Shown: in pieces, positions 2 to 63,969 of the stretch
Position numbering within the stretch: the stretch's first letter is position 1
Layout: every line of letters begins with the position of its first letter
NCBI GenBank assembly: GCA_013099195.1
Contig: CP039999.1
Location: forward strand, 310,001-374,000
DNA length: 64,000 bases
DNA from: Candidatus Saccharibacteria bacterium oral taxon 488
GTDB taxonomy: Bacteria > Patescibacteriota > Saccharimonadia > Saccharimonadales > Saccharimonadaceae
Reading direction: 5' to 3'
Made by a program: the position numbers and the translations under genes
The notes under the pieces: generated by a model
Databases searched by the model: none
What the model was told of the DNA's origin: nothing
Seen by the model: the letters and a program-made list of their open reading frames with translations, nothing else

Positions 2-550
2 AAGATGCTGGTTGGCAAGATTTATAACGTGGTGACTGGCTACATCGTCGGGCAGCTGACGGTGTCGGGGATTGGTTCGTTGTGCGCCGGGGCGTTTGTG
101 TTTGGTATGAGCTGGTTTATTCCTGAGATCGCGGCCAACTTGGCGATGCCGACGATTCTGCTGGTGTTCCTACTCAGCCTGATCCCGATGTTTGGGGCAA
201 CGATCGCCGGTGTGGTGGTGGGACTGATGCTGATGCTCAATAGTGTGTCGGCGGGCGTCATCTATCTCATCTATTTCGTGATCTACCAGCAGATTGAGAA
301 TAATTTTATCGCGCCAGTCATTCAGGGCAAGAAAGTCGAGCTGTCGGCGCTGGCGATCTTGGTGGCGGTGACGGTGGGGCTGTATGTTGGCGGCCTAGTT
401 GGTGGTGTGGTGGCTATCCCGATCGCTGGGTCGCTCAAGGTGCTGATGGATGATTATCTGGCGCATAATCGCGAGCCGCAGGCGCCGCCTCGCCGCTCGC
501 CGCTAAAAAAGGCGCTCAAAAAAGCTGCTGAGACGAAGCCAGCTGAGTAA
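2..550 (+). CDS. AI-2E family (PerM-like) permease, C-terminal part
   Basis: The gene runs off the left edge, so only the last ~182 residues are visible. They form several hydrophobic segments, with a family-typical stretch near residues 90-105 (YFVIYQQIENNFIAPVIQG), then a final pair of helices and a basic, Pro/Lys/Ala-rich cytoplasmic tail. This matches the C-terminal half of AI-2E/PerM exporters, integral membrane proteins whose true substrates are mostly unknown. It converges on cysS with a gap of about 20 bp. The family call rests on the conserved segment; substrate is not inferable. Confidence 0.85.
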   Translation, partial: KMLVGKIYNVVTGYIVGQLTVSGIGSLCAGAFVFGMSWFIPEIAANLAMPTILLVFLLSLIPMFGATIAGVVVGLMLMLNSVSAGVIYLIYFVIYQQIENNFIAPVIQGKKVELSALAILVAVTVGLYVGGLVGGVVAIPIAGSLKVLMDDYLAHNREPQAPPRRSPLKKALKKAAETKPAE

Positions 551-2161: not shown

Positions 2162-2623
2162 ATGGATACAACATTGTTTCAGTACTGTCAAAAAATAGTG
2201 CTATTCAATCAAGACGGCTCTGCTGTGCTGCTCGCTAGGCGCCGCGGGGAGGCTGATTATGATGGCGTGTTCTCGTTTATTGGCGGCAAGTTGGAGTCGA
2301 CGGATGGCGGCCTAGTGAATGGTCTTCGGCGGGAGAAAAATGAGGAAATTGGCTCGGCTGCTAAAATTGCGGTGGTGACGAACATCAGCGTTAATGAATA
2401 TTTTGTCAAAACTAATGGACAGGCCATGGTACTGCCGCACTATTATGCCCGGTTTATTGGCGGTGAAATTATGCTCAATGATGAGTATTCTGAATATCGG
2501 TGGGTGAACCTACGTGAGTTAGATCAGTTTGAACCAAAGATTGAGACAGTCACCCCTATGGTTGAGGCTGTCCAAAAATTATGCGAGTCGCTACCGAGGC
2601 GGATTATCGAGAGATATAGTTAA
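2162..2623 (+). CDS. Nudix hydrolase family protein
   Basis: A 153-residue protein of the Nudix fold, which hydrolyses nucleoside diphosphates linked to another group. The catalytic core REKNEEIG (residues 57-64) is intact. The front of the Nudix box (GGKLEST) is shifted by one residue from the consensus GX5EX7REUXEEXGU, so activity may be altered. Substrate cannot be read from sequence; a house-cleaning role is plausible. A TATGAT -10 box at 2123-2128 and a GAAAGGTGA ribosome site just before the ATG make this one of the few clearly leadered genes in the region. Confidence 0.85.
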   Translation: MDTTLFQYCQKIVLFNQDGSAVLLARRRGEADYDGVFSFIGGKLESTDGGLVNGLRREKNEEIGSAAKIAVVTNISVNEYFVKTNGQAMVLPHYYARFIGGEIMLNDEYSEYRWVNLRELDQFEPKIETVTPMVEAVQKLCESLPRRIIERYS

Positions 2624-2636
2624 ATCATTCCCACTC

Positions 2637-2755
2637 CAATGAAAATAGCCCACCGAACGAGCTCAAACCAGAACTGGATATGTCTCAACCCAGGAAATGC
2701 AAGTGATGCATCTCAACCAGTTTGAGCCCAGTTCGGTGAGCTATTTTCGGTGGGC
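2637..2755 (-). repeat. Structured 3' element, cassette copy 1
   Basis: About 119 bp downstream of the small membrane protein gene. GCCCACCGAA (2648-2657) is complementary to 2746-2755, and GAAAATAG (2641-2648) is complementary to CTATTTTC (2741-2748). The two pairings are interlocked (A-B...A'-B'), so a pseudoknot or alternative folds are possible. GCTCAAAC/GTTTGAGC and ATGCA/TGCAT form inner stems. The outer 30 nt (2637-2666) is identical to 5227-5256, and 2738-2755 is identical to 5324-5341. On the minus strand it ends in GGGCTATTTTC, so it could also act as a terminator. Confidence 0.75.
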
Positions 2756-2764
2756 GGCCCCCTG

Positions 2765-2986
2765 TTACTTCTCTCTATGTTCCACCACGGCCCCCCAAGC
2801 CGTGGCGGCGATCCCGATGACCCCCGTAACAACGTACACCCATGCAGCGAGGTGGTCGTCACCCTGCTTGCAACCCCTTAGACATCCGTCAGGGCTGAGG
2901 CATACATTATTGCTAATCAGCCAGACCCCGAACACGAGGATGAGAATGAAGACAATTTCCCACACGACGAATTCACGCTTGGACAT
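2765..2986 (-). CDS. Small two-helix membrane protein, cassette copy 1
   Basis: A 73-residue protein of unknown function. The ATG at 2986 was chosen over an upstream TTG because AAAGGATAAAGG precedes it at normal spacing and the TTG lies inside the leader hairpin. It has a hydrophobic segment at residues 8-26, a short loop with three cysteines (CLSPDGCLRGC), and a second hydrophobic segment at 48-66, then a charged tail (VVEHREK). It has its own promoter and leader hairpin and is followed by the structured 3' element. The second cassette (5344-5553) has the same layout but little sequence identity in the protein. No family is recognised; a type I toxin-like peptide, an immunity-type protein or an envelope peptide are all possible. 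Confidence 0.7.
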   Translation of the reverse strand: MSKREFVVWEIVFILILVFGVWLISNNVCLSPDGCLRGCKQGDDHLAAWVYVVTGVIGIAATAWGAVVEHREK

Positions 2987-3012
2987 ACCTTTATCCTTTC
3001 TCGAGAAGAAAA

Positions 3013-3061
3013 AGCTCAAAGCTAAAGGGCGACTTCCGCCCTAAGATGATAACCTTGAGCT
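3013..3061 (-). promoter_or_regulatory. Nested leader hairpin, attenuator-like (copy 1)
   Basis: An outer stem pairs 3013-3021 with 3053-3061 (AGCTCAA/TTGAGCT) and an inner stem GGGCG/CGCCC pairs 3027-3031 with 3037-3041. Read on the minus strand the outer stem is followed directly by TTTTTCTTCT, like an intrinsic terminator. It lies between the promoter and the start codon, so it could attenuate transcription. The same structure occurs at 5578-5623. Confidence 0.65.
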
Positions 3062-3075
3062 AGAAGCTTACGTAT

Positions 3076-3104
3076 AACATACCACTAATAGAATAAAATG
3101 TCAA
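3076..3104 (-). promoter_or_regulatory. Sigma70-type promoter of cassette copy 1
   Basis: -35 TTGACA (3099-3104), 17 bp spacer, -10 TATGTT (3076-3081). The spacer is largely shared with the copy 2 promoter. Confidence 0.75.
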
Positions 3105-3131
3105 AGTATTTTGTTAATGAGATAGTAGTGT

Positions 3132-4559
3132 CTATTTTTCGGCGTTTTTGGCTTGCTTGTAGGCTTTGGTGACCGGTGCCAGGCCGCGGGCGATGCGTTC
3201 GCGGTTGGCTTTGAGCTGTTTTTCGTCGCGGAAAGATAATTTGATGGGTGTGCCGGCGAAGTTGAAAGCTTCGCGTAAAGTCCGCTCCAGGTAGCGTTTG
3301 TAGCTCCAGTGGACGAATTTCAGGTTGCTGCCGTAGATGACGAACCATGGCGGTGCTGTGTCGGTCTGGACGATGTAGCGGAGCTTTGGATGCGAGTTCT
3401 TTAGGCCAGCTGGCGGATGAGCGGCGACGGCTTTTTGCAAGATGTCGTTGAGGATCCGGGTTTTGCATTCTTGGCGGCGGCGCTTATAAATATCGAGGGC
3501 TAGGTCGAACAATTTGGCGACGTTTTGGCCGGTGACTGATGAAGTGAAAATCAGCGGTGCGTAGGGCGTGAATTTGAAATGATAGCTGATTTGCGGCGCT
3601 AATTCGTCGCGGGTGTAGGCGTCTTTACCTTCGACGGAGTCCCATTTGCTGACCACCAGCACGAGCCCCTTGCCTGCTTCGTCGATGATGCCAGCCAAGC
3701 GCTGATCCAACCCAACGTTTAATTCATTGACGTCCATCAGCAGGAAGCAGACGTCGGCTTCGTTGATAGCCTGCATGGTGCGTAGGACTGAGAACTTTTC
3801 GATGCCGGTCTCTTGCTTGCCTTGGCGGCGAATGCCGGCGGTGTCGAGTAGCTCGATGGTCTGGCCATGGTAGCGGACTTGGACACGGTTGACGTCGCGG
3901 GTGGTGCCGGCGACATTGGCGACGATGGCTTGCTGCTTGCCCGCCAAGGTGTTAAACAAGTTACTTTTACCGACATTTGGCCGGCCAATCAAGGCGACGC
4001 GAATGATGTCGTCAGCTTCGGCGGCAGTGGCTGGCGGAATGAGATCGGCAATGTTGTCGAGTAGCTCGGAGATGCCAATGTTGTGCTCGGCAGAGGTTTT
4101 GATGATGGTTTTGATACCGAGACGTTTGAATTCGTCGGTGTGGAGCGAGCCTTTGAGGTCAGCTTTATTGGCGATGAGGAGGACGGGCTTGCTGCTTTTG
4201 AGGGCTTTTTTGGCCAGTTGACGGTCGGCGTCTGATGGGTAGACGGTGGAATCGACCATGACGAGGATGACGTCGGCAGCGGCGGAGGCGTCGGCGATTT
4301 GGTCTTGGATGGTGGCTTCGAATTCGTCTTCGGCGGGCTTGAGGCCGGCGGTGTCGATGAGCCAGAACTCAGCCTGGCTTGCCTCGTCAGGAGATGAAGC
4401 GCGGCGCTTATACGAAACTTTGCCAACGACGTTGTCGCGGGTGGTGCCGGCTTCGCGGGCAACGATGGCGGTGCGGGCGCGCGTCAAGCGATTGAACAGT
4501 GAACTTTTGCCAACGTTAGCTTGGCCGATGATGGCGACGGTAGGTAATTTATGAGACAT
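3132..4559 (-). CDS. der: Ribosome-assembly GTPase Der (EngA)
   Basis: An essential GTPase that assists 50S subunit maturation. It has the diagnostic tandem G domains: P-loops GQANVGKS (residues 12-19) and GRPNVGKS (192-199), G3 motifs DTAG in both domains, and NKAD/SKWD G4 motifs. A KH-like C-terminal domain follows. The 475-residue length is normal. TATAAT (4570-4575) lies 10 nt before the ATG with an extended TGG. The gene lies between the two copies of the small-membrane-protein cassette. Confidence 0.97.
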   Translation of the reverse strand: MSHKLPTVAIIGQANVGKSSLFNRLTRARTAIVAREAGTTRDNVVGKVSYKRRASSPDEASQAEFWLIDTAGLKPAEDEFEATIQDQIADASAAADVILVMVDSTVYPSDADRQLAKKALKSSKPVLLIANKADLKGSLHTDEFKRLGIKTIIKTSAEHNIGISELLDNIADLIPPATAAEADDIIRVALIGRPNVGKSNLFNTLAGKQQAIVANVAGTTRDVNRVQVRYHGQTIELLDTAGIRRQGKQETGIEKFSVLRTMQAINEADVCFLLMDVNELNVGLDQRLAGIIDEAGKGLVLVVSKWDSVEGKDAYTRDELAPQISYHFKFTPYAPLIFTSSVTGQNVAKLFDLALDIYKRRRQECKTRILNDILQKAVAAHPPAGLKNSHPKLRYIVQTDTAPPWFVIYGSNLKFVHWSYKRYLERTLREAFNFAGTPIKLSFRDEKQLKANRERIARGLAPVTKAYKQAKNAEK

Positions 4560-4569
4560 AATTACGCCT

Positions 4570-4575
4570 ATTATA
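4570..4575 (-). promoter_or_regulatory. Extended -10 box of der
   Basis: TGGTATAAT on the minus strand, ending 10 nt before the ATG. Confidence 0.6.
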
Positions 4576-4616
4576 CCAGAGGTGTGAGGATTTGGCGAGG
4601 ATGAGCGTTATAAGGC

Positions 4617-5072
4617 TTAATTACTATTTGTTGGAGTGGTTGTCGCTTCAATGCTTGGTACAGGACTAGTTGGTGTTGGCGGAGTGTAACCGCATTCAGG
4701 GCTGTTAGGGATGGCGGTGATGCTGCCTGTTCTTGAATTAGCGTTGTAATATCGATACAACAGCGTAGGTCCATTGCAGGCTTTTGCTATATGTGAGTAA
4801 GCACTCAATTCCCCTTCCTCGCAGTCGTCGCCACCAGCACAGCCTTTATCAACAACCTTCCAGTCAAGATCGGGGTTGCCTCTTGAATCTGTCTTTGTGT
4901 CAGCCGTAGGGCTTTCCTGCTCTTGTGCTGTACTGGTTACTTCCGTCTTTTCTTTCGGTGCGCTGCAGCCTGATATAAATAGTGCGGTAGTGGCCACAAC
5001 ACCAAGTACTGCTCCTGCTTTTCGCCATAATGATTCGCTACCACCATTTGGAAGTTCTGACATATTCTTCAC
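4617..5072 (-). CDS. Putative secreted lipoprotein
   Basis: Unknown function. The GTG at 5072 is chosen because AAAGGAG sits 5 nt upstream; the longer frame lacks such a site. The 151-residue protein has a basic N-terminus, a hydrophobic helix and a lipobox ISGC with Cys36, predicting lipid anchoring on the outer face of the membrane. The mature part has four cysteines (CAGGDDC, ACNG, ECGY) likely forming disulfides, and a Pro/Thr/Ser-rich C-terminus. The extracellular, low-complexity tail suggests a surface or wall-spanning protein. Confidence 0.75.
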   Translation of the reverse strand: MKNMSELPNGGSESLWRKAGAVLGVVATTALFISGCSAPKEKTEVTSTAQEQESPTADTKTDSRGNPDLDWKVVDKGCAGGDDCEEGELSAYSHIAKACNGPTLLYRYYNANSRTGSITAIPNSPECGYTPPTPTSPVPSIEATTTPTNSN

Positions 5073-5226
5073 GATTACTCCTTTGTATGCTCTGTATTTA
5101 TGATATAGATTATACAATTTGTGTAGGGCTATGACAAACTAATCCGTTGGAATTCCCTATGCTTACTGGTGGCCGTGGGCAATGTGTAAACATATGTGAT
5201 AGAGGCGTGGGGTTTTTGGCGGGAAG
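5073..5226. other. Intergenic region without a recognised gene
   Basis: Short AT-rich stretch upstream of the lipoprotein gene, reaching the second structured element. It probably holds the lipoprotein promoter; no convincing ORF or RNA is visible. Confidence 0.4.
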
Positions 5227-5341
5227 CAATGAAAATAGCCCACCGAACGAGCTCAAGCTGCATGCGAGTTTTCAACCCGAGAGACAACATCATATTGTCT
5301 CAATCAGATTGAGCGCATACGGCGAGCTATTTTCGGTGGGC
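5227..5341 (-). repeat. Structured 3' element, cassette copy 2
   Basis: Second copy of the 2637-2755 element. The outer arms are identical to copy 1 (5227-5256 and 5324-5341) while the middle has diverged but keeps its stems: GCTCAA/TTGAGC, and a new inner hairpin GAGACAA/TTGTCTC. Conserved arms with a changed but still pairing interior suggest that structure is selected. Confidence 0.75.
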
Positions 5342-5343
5342 TG

Positions 5344-5553
5344 TTAGCCCTGCTTCTCCTTTTTCTTCTTGATCACCTCCTCAGTAACTCTGATCATGTG
5401 TGTGGCGCTGATGAGGTTTATCATTGCTCCCCCTACGAGGATAGCGATGGAACTCCACGACCCCCCGGCCGTACTGATCAGGATTCCCACTGTCAAGGTG
5501 TAGATCGCAACGGAAACATTGAACACAAACACCGCAAGACAAATAACAATCAC
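5344..5553 (-). CDS. Small two-helix membrane protein, cassette copy 2
   Basis: A 69-residue protein of unknown function. The GTG at 5553 is preferred because AGAGAGG lies 5-6 nt upstream; an upstream TTG falls in the leader hairpin. It has a hydrophobic segment at about residues 2-26, a Gly/Ser linker, a second at about 35-52, and a strongly basic C-terminus (VIKKKKEKQG). The membrane topology and cassette position match copy 1 (2765-2986), but the sequences share little. It abuts the structured 3' element by 2 nt. Confidence 0.68.
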   Translation of the reverse strand: MIVICLAVFVFNVSVAIYTLTVGILISTAGGSWSSIAILVGGAMINLISATHMIRVTEEVIKKKKEKQG

Positions 5554-5577
5554 TTCGCACCTCTCTTTTAACGAAAA

Positions 5578-5623
5578 GCTCAAAGCTAAAGGGCGACTTT
5601 CGCCCTTAGACTAAACTTTGAGC
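5578..5623 (-). promoter_or_regulatory. Nested leader hairpin, attenuator-like (copy 2)
   Basis: Perfect 8-bp outer stem GCTCAAAG/CTTTGAGC (5578-5585 with 5616-5623) and 7-bp inner stem AAGGGCG/CGCCCTT. On the minus strand TTTT follows the outer stem. Architecture equals copy 1. Confidence 0.65.
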
Positions 5624-5634
5624 AAAAGCTGATA

Positions 5635-5663
5635 TATATATCACTAATAGAACAAAATGTCAA
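5635..5663 (-). promoter_or_regulatory. Sigma70-type promoter of cassette copy 2
   Basis: -35 TTGACA (5658-5663), 17 bp spacer, -10 TATATA (5635-5640). Confidence 0.75.
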
Positions 5664-5715
5664 TGGATTTTGTCAAAAATGTGGTATAATATGCGTTTTT
5701 GGCGCCTGAGGAGGC

Positions 5716-6435
5716 CTAGTTAGTCAGTGGCCCTTCGGTAAATTCCCCGCGTTTGATGTCACCGAGAGTGTAATTGCCAAAGTCTGTGCGGTGGAGTTTG
5801 GTGACGGTGTAGCCGAGGGCAGCGAAGGTACGGCGGATTTGGCGGTTGCGACCTTCGCTCATCTGGACGATCCAGCGGTGGTCGTCACCCTCGTGCTGGC
5901 GTTCCAGCGTCAAGCGGCTGGGTCCGTCAGGTAGCTGTACGCCAAAGTCATTGATCATTTGCCGGTGGAGCGGCTGGAGCGGTTGGTCGAGCGTCACCAG
6001 GTAGCGCTTCATTTTATAAAACGACGGGTGTGTCATTTGATGGGCGAAGTCGCCGTCGTTAGTGAGGAGAATTAGTCCGGAGCTGTCTTTGTCCAGGCGA
6101 CCGACGGGTTTCAGGTGGTGGAGGCTGACCGGTAATAATTCATAAATGGTCGGTACACCACCTTGAGAGGCTCGCGAACAGAGGTAGCCGATGGGTTTAT
6201 GGAGGAGGATGAGCTGGTGGGTTTGGGCGGTGAGTCGTTTGTTGTCGTGGCGAATAATGTCGGTTGCGGTAATGCGTTGACCCAGCTTGGCGGGCTGGTC
6301 GTTCACCGTAACATTGCCCTGCTCTATCAGCTCGTCAGCCTGGCGGCGCGACACACCGAGTGCCAGCGCCACGAATTTGTTGAGGCGCTGGGCAGATGAA
6401 TCGGTAGAATCGGATGCTTGCGTTGGTGTCGTCAT
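5716..6435 (-). CDS. RsuA/RluB-family rRNA pseudouridine synthase
   Basis: Converts a specific rRNA uridine to pseudouridine. Residues 15-60 form an S4 RNA-binding domain (RLNKFVALALGVSRRQADEL). The catalytic domain carries GRLDKDSSGLILLTNDGDF with catalytic Asp115, and a C-terminal EGRNRQIRR motif typical of the family. 239 residues is a normal short form. The start codon lies 1 nt after the stop of the upstream response regulator gene, so the two are probably co-transcribed. Whether the target is 16S (RsuA) or 23S (RluB) is not decidable by eye. Confidence 0.92.
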   Translation of the reverse strand: MTTPTQASDSTDSSAQRLNKFVALALGVSRRQADELIEQGNVTVNDQPAKLGQRITATDIIRHDNKRLTAQTHQLILLHKPIGYLCSRASQGGVPTIYELLPVSLHHLKPVGRLDKDSSGLILLTNDGDFAHQMTHPSFYKMKRYLVTLDQPLQPLHRQMINDFGVQLPDGPSRLTLERQHEGDDHRWIVQMSEGRNRQIRRTFAALGYTVTKLHRTDFGNYTLGDIKRGEFTEGPLTN

Positions 6436-63562: not shown

Positions 63563-63898
63563 TGGTGGACTCAAGCGGTTCTGCTCGGAGTTGATCTCAT
63601 CGCTGAGAAAAACTGCTACGAGTGAACTCGCGAGTCCTGAGGATTTAAGAACGGTAGCGTCACAAGCACGCAGATTCCGTTCCGATGAACAGGCGAGACC
63701 TTGAAAGGCGAAGGTCCCTTTAGCCTATCCATACCGCTGGCTCAAGTTACTGCTTGATGATGACAGTAACGAACCGCTTGTAGCGGTTGCTAGATGGGCG
63801 AAAACAATGCTGTTTTCGTGATAGACCAGAGTGGAGGTTATTGGCCTATCATGCGTACTGTTTGCAGCTCAACGCTGAGCTATAGCACGCACCCCAGC
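63563..63898 (-). ncRNA. Highly structured RNA region, unknown
   Basis: No credible ORF. Several perfect hairpins: GTTACTG/CAGTAAC (63746-63770), AACCGCT/AGCGGTT (63772-63788) and CGAAAACA/TGTTTTCG (63799-63818), among others. It lies directly downstream, on the minus strand, of a tRNA-like T-arm and upstream of a strong hairpin, so a large structured RNA is likely. Identity is not established. Confidence 0.45.
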
Positions 63899-63969
63899 GG
63901 ATGTGGCGGGAGTCGAACCCGCGAGGCTCGGCGGTTTTTTAAGACCTCGCCTCCTGACCTAGCACACCC
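63899..63969 (-). ncRNA. ssrA: tRNA-like 3' domain, possible tmRNA end
   Basis: On the minus strand T-arm GCGGGTTCGACTCCCGC (63906-63922) is followed by CACATCC, as in tmRNA 3' ends. GGGTGTG (63963-63969) could form the acceptor partner with one G-U pair, but only ~40 nt separate it from the T-arm and no good D or anticodon arm forms. No CCA is encoded. A tmRNA whose 5' part lies beyond 64000 is the leading guess; a degenerate tRNA is the alternative. Confidence 0.35.

Follow-up and report, generated by a model that had tools for sequence, protein, structure and literature searches.

A Recurrent Family of Small, Apparently Exchangeable Transcription Units with a Predicted Two-State RNA Tail in Saccharibacteria

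Results

Two minus-strand units of the same layout were present in the window (the whole 64,000-nucleotide stretch of DNA from Candidatus Saccharibacteria bacterium oral taxon 488 that was analyzed), at 3104-2641 and 5663-5231, each comprising, in order, a promoter, a leader hairpin, the gene for a small two-helix protein, and a 3' element of ~115 nt. An earlier note on this DNA had described the parts of one such unit and had reported a second unit of identical layout; all of the parts were confirmed, on the minus strand, and so was the second unit. The promoter of unit 1 (3076..3104, minus strand; TTGACA-17-TATGTT, with a TG ahead of the -10 box) had 10/12 consensus matches and was followed on the same strand by a hairpin in the 5' UTR (3013..3061; z = -2.75; 3/200 shuffles folded as well) and by an ORF for an orphan protein of 73 aa with two predicted membrane segments (2765..2986). 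The 115-nt element of this unit (2641..2755, minus strand) had an RNA z-score of -9.07 and an E value of 2.3e-18 with covariance model R2 (see below). Within the element, an outer arm (2755-2746) and an inner arm formed by an A-tract and GCTCACCGAAC (2748-2731) precede a shared 3' arm with a T-rich tail (2658-2641). The gene adjoining unit 1 is convergent.

Unit 2, also on the minus strand, consisted of a promoter at 5635..5663 (TTGACA-17-TATATA), a leader hairpin at 5578..5623 (z = -5.2; 0/200 shuffles folded as well), a GTG-initiated ORF at 5344..5553 encoding an orphan protein of 69 aa with two predicted membrane segments, and a 111-nt element at 5231..5341 (RNA z-score of -8.87; R2 E value of 2.1e-22). 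Each of the window elements folded better than 200/200 shuffles. A consensus promoter scan of a 3.2-kb stretch of the window detected 7 promoter-like sites compared to a mean of 2.9 in shuffles; the rule used requires a T at the last position of the -10 box, and the promoter of unit 2 lies outside it. The two units had in common an identical 30-nt end and a 37-nt leader stretch with 95% identity. No relationship was detectable between their proteins, which the earlier note had regarded as diverged (Smith-Waterman score of 25, reached by 165/300 shuffles). At the sensitivity of a search of a 5.8 billion-entry database, relatives of the unit 1 protein were limited to 3 clusters (99, 78, and 75% identity) and those of the unit 2 protein to one cluster (99% identity and also 69 aa). 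Comparison of the window with Rfam at the gathering score yielded two tRNAs only, and a search of 2500-5800 with E values up to 1 yielded nothing over either unit.

Minimum-energy folds of the elements fell into two classes. Fold A joins the inner 5' arm (a purine tract and GCTCGCCGAA) to the 3' arm and the tail. That 3' arm (TTCGGTGGGC) is instead paired with the outer 5' arm (GCCCACCGAA) in fold B, which leaves the T-rich tail unpaired; a second helix then contains the inner arm, and the tip is variable. A tRNA-like (cloverleaf) reading, prompted by the arm lengths, was dropped in view of relatives of ~52 to 76 nt without such arms.

The distribution of the units was examined by sequence and structure searches. 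A DNA search with unit 1 produced matches in 9 of 12 related genomes, those in G001 and G002 being through the promoter stretch only. Two covariance models were grown from elements with DNA similarity to the window, R1 being built from 12 elements with the structure of fold A and R2 from 39 elements with that of fold B, and each selects its own fold among the hits. Among 394 sampled genomes of one family, R1 matched 44 (E ≤ 0.01) and R2 matched 56 (E ≤ 0.001), with rough E values and possibly a few plain hairpins among the weak matches. Of 379 sampled genomes from the phylum, 11 were matched, of which 8 had already been matched in the family search and 3 (G469, G574, and G666) were rejected on inspection as one tRNA gene and two simple hairpins. 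At this sensitivity, the element family looks confined to this Saccharibacteria lineage. The final set of 84 elements (50 collected and 37 further hits, minus the 3 hits outside the family) retained one weak in-family hit of 39 nt, L214, which resembles a simple hairpin; matches to the same palindrome on the opposite strand did not enter the count as separate elements. The earlier note had named other genomic copies as one thing to look for, and these were found, in 56/394 genomes with R2. It had also known of no named family with this layout, which agrees with the absence of Rfam matches over the units and with the literature: titles and abstract openings on integrons, cassettes, attC, and terminators in Saccharibacteria or Patescibacteria described no such units among the matches listed, and the main text of PMC8040213, in the part covered here, is without mention of TM7 or Saccharibacteria. 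These results strongly indicated a real and recurrent family of Saccharibacteria units, found without a name.

The Der protein of the window had 92 to 93% identity with loci of HOT-352 and of a 0.7-Mb Saccharibacteria genome, and a pattern search of 80 der loci of relatives detected no copies of the units. A weak R2 match directly behind der in another genome (L052:11390-11467, minus strand; E = 4e-4) has the appearance of a diverged element oriented toward der. In L001 (11535-12302), the place behind der that unit 1 occupies in the window has an ORF for a membrane protein with a similar promoter, and a similar ORF was present in L002; the products seem to resemble a CPBP-type protease. In the window itself, a small predicted lipoprotein is encoded between der and unit 2 (4617-5081, minus strand), and by eye a similar ORF is found at the corresponding place in L004 (from about 9438). 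Far from these genes, ARAGORN predicted a tRNA with a four-base anticodon and an ambiguous identity (63897-63969, minus strand).

Pairing between the arms was assessed in two sets of non-redundant elements. In the first set (n = 39), each 5' arm preferred its partner within the element, the own outer arm scoring above the average of those of other elements in 38/39 and the own inner arm in 37/39 (0/5,000 permutations); in 31 further elements from outside model building, the corresponding numbers were 30 and 31. As the first set had been found with the fold-A model and the second with the fold-B model, the first set's outer-arm result and the second set's inner-arm result are the fair tests. 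Three elements (L137_2107, L137_3330, and L151) did not yield the outer pairing. In the columns of fold A, 92.9% of cells were paired and 52 cells were changed on both sides, compared to 92.8% and 22 cells for the outer helix of fold B and 83% with 14 cells and 78% with 58 cells for its inner helices, L and X. Against column-count shuffles, which take no account of relatedness among the elements, the paired percentage and the number of double-change cells exceeded all 500 shuffles for every helix. By the same shuffles, double-change pairs outnumbered those of all 500 for the outer helix of fold B only; 1 shuffle reached their number for fold A, and 74 and 268 did so for the inner helices, whose further pair types were reached by 237 and 21 shuffles. 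Slid controls had lower paired percentages and covariation scores throughout. The earlier note had suggested that RNA structure is under selection and had looked to stem covariation as a further sign; covariation was present in the stems of both folds.

The median energy difference between folds A and B was -0.2 kcal/mol, the difference being <5 in 22/39 elements and at least 5 in 17/39. Fold A was more stable on the sense strand in 32/39 elements (p = 1.1e-5). Strand had first been set by the model, and the test was repeated with orientation by the stop codon alone (n = 37), fold A again favoring the sense strand in 31/37 (p = 7.5e-6). There was no clear strand bias for fold B (20/39; 22/37 by stop codon, p = 0.1). 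The sense-strand preference of fold A was taken as selection on the transcript. The longest T run in the tail was at least 4 in 66/84 elements and at least 5 in 19/84, with a mean T fraction of 0.61. Overall, these analyses provided strong grounds for regarding the 3' element as a putative two-state RNA tail.

An ORF of at least 38 aa on the element's own strand ended within 45 nt of 77/84 elements, compared to 35/84 for the opposite strand and 724/2,874 random sites; 7/84 elements had no nearby ORF of at least 38 aa. A stop codon lay within 3 nt of the element in 46/84 cases on the own strand, 6/84 on the opposite strand, and 98/2,874 at random sites. The gap was ≤3 nt in 47/77 with an earlier choice of ORFs. 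Of 77 elements, 21 lay >10 nt behind the stop. Among 135 classical terminators that followed ORFs of ≥120 codons (in the window and the 80 der loci), none was within 3 nt of a stop codon and the median distance was 45 nt. The elements ranged from about 50 to 115 nt across units.

Comparison of 48 cassette proteins with Pfam, PHROGs, and NCBIfam gave few matches, all single and weak; those to PHROGs were five in number, one of them named holin, and PADLOC gave none among the 48. The products were nearly all orphans with no common family. Their median length was 74.5 aa, and at least one membrane segment was predicted in 28/48 and none in 20/48. A phage origin was rejected: IMG/VR contained no match to one exact element pattern, unit 1 had no match in phage records, unit 2 had none in plasmid records, and the PHROGs matches were few and weak.

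A typical unit had a promoter of the sigma-70 type and a 5' UTR that was either short or contained a hairpin. A strict TTGAC-16..18-TAnnnT promoter could be placed in 27/50 units, with some placements doubtful, and a looser pattern placed more. The earlier note had described a leader hairpin ending in a T-run; the hairpin was found in both window units, but the T-run was not conserved in relatives, and the leader was for that reason rejected as an attenuator. A consensus fold of 14 leaders (unit 1 and 13 others) contained five pairs only, forming a short apical stem, so that support for the leader as a conserved structure is weak.

In several genomes, near-identical elements followed dissimilar genes. 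Elements with 92 to 97% identity lay behind ORFs without a clear relationship in G004 (three units), G027, G039, and G151, and two identical 52-nt elements in L212 had different ORFs ahead of them. Relationship was judged against Smith-Waterman shuffles; most ORF pairs were at chance and several were slightly above it (reached by 3 to 13 of 300 shuffles), and in some pairs the ORFs may have diverged from common ancestors. In a tandem pair in G002, a genome with three elements by R2, the ORFs were clearly related and the elements were 94% identical. Element identity within genomes was 0.55 to 0.97 with a median of 0.78, compared to a median of 0.61 between genomes. A unit in G011 (HOT-348, L011) was a mosaic relative to the window, with a promoter-leader like that of unit 2 (92% identity, compared to 83% with unit 1), an element like that of unit 1 (95% identity), and an ORF not clearly related to either window ORF; identity between the der DNA of G011 and that of the window was only 64%. 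Units occurred in tandem in L137 to L143 and in L212. None of 10 tandem junctions had another classical terminator before the next promoter, the first 60 nt being inspected where no promoter was recognized. The next unit's own promoter was recognized in 8/10, starting 15 to 86 nt behind the element. Sequence comparison thus placed the window units in a family of apparently exchangeable transcription units, mostly with one gene and sometimes with two.

One site, between trmD and khpA, was surveyed in 30 genomes that had been hand-chosen and were enriched for carriers. KhpA was found in 29/30, and the interval was measured in 24. It was empty, at 132 to 152 bp, in five (G003, G005, G009, G011, and G012) and contained a unit with the element in ten (G002, G006, G007, G008, G010, G046, G098, G136, G151, and G178). 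The remaining nine intervals had ORFs without this element (e.g., G004 and G141) or no recognized unit. G039, outside the 24 measured intervals, had three units at this site. The hotspot ORFs differed among the ten carriers except for a related pair in G008 and G178 (Smith-Waterman score of 173). No unit-type promoter was seen in the five empty sites, suggesting that the promoter travels with the unit.

Discussion

The units may be best explained as exchangeable transcription units with an element that serves as a dual-arm intrinsic terminator and 3' stabilizer and that have spread by DNA uptake and recombination. Judged from sequence, we consider this explanation about evenly poised between right and wrong, and we attach moderate confidence to the idea that the element would be a ribosome-proof terminator. 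In the sense transcript, it would act as an intrinsic terminator and 3' stabilizer working directly at the stop codon. In over half of the units, the outer arm starts at the stop codon, with the inner arm starting some 15 nt downstream. The outer arm would be covered by a ribosome terminating there, and the inner arm would then close the hairpin; with no ribosome, the outer arm would close it. The unit would end cleanly, translated or not, and it could stand among other genes or in tandem arrays. For an E. coli terminator located 5 bp after a stop codon, efficiency is reported to fall from about 90% to <10%, a repression reported to be gone without translation (PMC4824070). A second 5' arm beyond the ribosome footprint would rescue termination, and a dual-arm terminator would explain the stop adjacency, the two arms, and the lack of any other terminator in arrays. 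Spread would occur through DNA uptake and homologous recombination in common flanks, bringing new ORFs between the same promoter and tail; com-dependent natural transformation has been reported for Saccharibacteria (PMC10633639).

Several findings stand against this explanation. The tails are T-rich but broken, 21/77 elements lie >10 nt behind the stop, and 7/84 are without a nearby ORF of at least 38 aa; the energies of the two folds differ by at least 5 kcal/mol in 17/39 elements, and three elements did not yield the outer pairing. Some of the supposedly unlike ORFs score slightly above shuffles, and those of the G002 tandem pair are related. Moreover, the inner helices L and X of fold B covary by some measures although a redundant terminator needs no such covariation, and the strong covariation of the tail-spacer pairing in fold A is unexplained by termination alone. 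As both kinds of covariation are left unexplained by a terminator, a regulatory or stabilizing role of the choice of fold is a live rival. In one form of it, the element would be a translation-dependent regulatory switch in place of a constitutive terminator, with expression feeding back on translation, such that a ribosome at the stop leads to fold A (a blunt stable 3' end or read-through) and the lack of one leads to fold B (a free tail, with termination or decay). This switch is consistent with an outer arm lying inside the expected ribosome footprint in more than half of the units, with the median energy difference of -0.2 kcal/mol, and with covariation of the helices of both folds, including the L and X helices, by which fold B keeps the inner arm apart; the 21/77 elements located >10 nt from the stop are difficult to reconcile with it, and we consider it unlikely. 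Ribosome-mediated attenuators (trp and tna) likewise have mutually exclusive hairpins that can be selected by a ribosome on a short ORF, but no downstream gene under control was apparent for the Saccharibacteria units and the next unit mostly had its own promoter. An attenuator reading, prompted by the attenuator-like hairpin of the earlier note, is further disfavored by the location of the element behind the gene and by the recognized promoter of the next unit in 8/10 tandem junctions. The GC-rich hairpin, T-rich tail, and complementary A-tract of the element are those of intrinsic and bidirectional terminators, and it was the only candidate terminator seen between tandem units, whereas its two 5' arms competing for one 3' arm, its frequent location 0 to 3 nt behind a stop, its length of about 50 to 115 nt with inner helices, and its tie to one class of accessory unit are unlike them. 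A-tract/T-tract symmetry is usual in bidirectional terminators. The symmetry in the element fits a reading of the units as ordinary autonomous accessory genes ("morons"), with conserved flanks that are common promoters and terminators spread by homologous recombination and with the two folds as a by-product of a bidirectional terminator; the units are indeed self-contained and lie between core genes, and phage morons are also autonomous promoter-gene-terminator units inserted between genes. Phage morons differ from the Saccharibacteria units, which occupy core chromosomal loci and have flanks common to unlike genes, and a bidirectional terminator needs neither a third, outer arm in covariation with the 3' arm nor adjacency to a stop codon. 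This makes the moron reading doubtful in our view.

The resemblance to integron cassettes, including those of chromosomal super-integrons, extends to a small orphan gene with an imperfect palindrome behind its stop, tandem arrays, like tails with unlike genes in several genomes, and gene turnover at a fixed place. It raises the idea that the 3' element is a single-stranded DNA recombination site, an attC-like tail of integron-type cassettes with an unknown recombinase, for which the frequent position of the tail at the stop, the orphan ORFs, the arrays, and the alike tails with unlike genes in some genomes would speak, as would fold B, which has the attC order of an outer helix, an unpaired spacer, a bulged inner helix, and a variable tip. 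The core boxes of attC are R'' (RYYYAAC) and R' (GTTRRRY), and its bottom-strand hairpin has extrahelical bases. Both together were present in 0/84 elements; singly, GTTRRRY occurred in the 3' part of 1/84 and RYYYAAC in the 5' part of 0/84. Tyrosine-recombinase (Phage_integrase) domains, the only class searched for, numbered 1 or 2 in each of 17/17 genomes and exactly one in 14, and in these 17 genomes none shared a contig with an element at a distance of 90 kb or less, the contigs being fragmentary. The bottom strand is reported to be the one used by attC (PMC2727003), whereas fold A prefers the sense strand and is no part of attC, fold B prefers neither strand, and most units have their own promoter. 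We consider an attC-like role distinctly unlikely. Membership in integrons was rejected on the grounds that no attC boxes and no adjoining tyrosine recombinase were found, and spread of the units by an integrase is unsupported by these two results and by the lack of a bottom-strand signature. The units are further distinguished from integron cassettes by a sense-strand RNA signature, a two-state fold, and the occurrence of dispersed singles. Type I toxin-antitoxin or bacteriocin-immunity units, of a kind brought up in the earlier note, could account for structured mRNA ends and for products with a median of 74.5 aa, 28/48 of which have at least one predicted membrane segment. The 20/48 products without such a segment and the lack of a common family among these orphans count against this reading, the Pfam and NCBIfam matches were few and weak and PADLOC matches were absent, and promoter-like sites antisense to the units were limited to one 9/12 site for unit 1 and none for unit 2 (shuffle mean of 2.9 sites per 3.2 kb). 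A toxin reading of the small proteins was favored by nothing in this analysis, and we judge it highly improbable.

Beyond the exchangeable units with a dual-arm terminator, a more far-reaching proposal is that of an integrase-free gene-cassette system in which the common tail, as a two-state RNA, would register the arrival of a ribosome at the stop and in which tail and promoter-leader would be recombination handles for swaps of orphan genes between species at fixed chromosomal sites; we offer this only tentatively and think it rather unlikely. Saccharibacteria are tiny bacteria that live on other bacteria. A search for the tail provides a handle on the accessory genes of this hard-to-culture group and finds small orphan genes apparently exchanged between species. 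The element also provides a concrete case, open to testing, in which a 3' RNA element would be shaped by the ribosome at a stop codon, a place in which the failure of an ordinary terminator has been shown for E. coli.

Several other features were observed at the trmD-khpA site. Units with the same type of promoter but without this 3' element were present in G004 and G141 (L226 and L227), one having a leader-like hairpin and one another long hairpin. A second recurring ORF, which by eye has a similar start and a hydrophobic segment at the C terminus, was present in G112 (L239), G178 (L244), G098 (L231), and G147 (L238). In addition, about 100 nt behind khpA recurred in nearly all of the trmD-khpA intervals examined (L220 to L245; also, e.g., L102:1722-1806), with the order ACATATAAGGCTCTCAAC ... 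GTTGCTCGCATAGAGC ... TTCTCGCAGTTC. This stretch had no match in Rfam when searched in L233, L220, and L137; its hairpin sequences change and look complementary by eye, and it is perhaps a conserved structured RNA.
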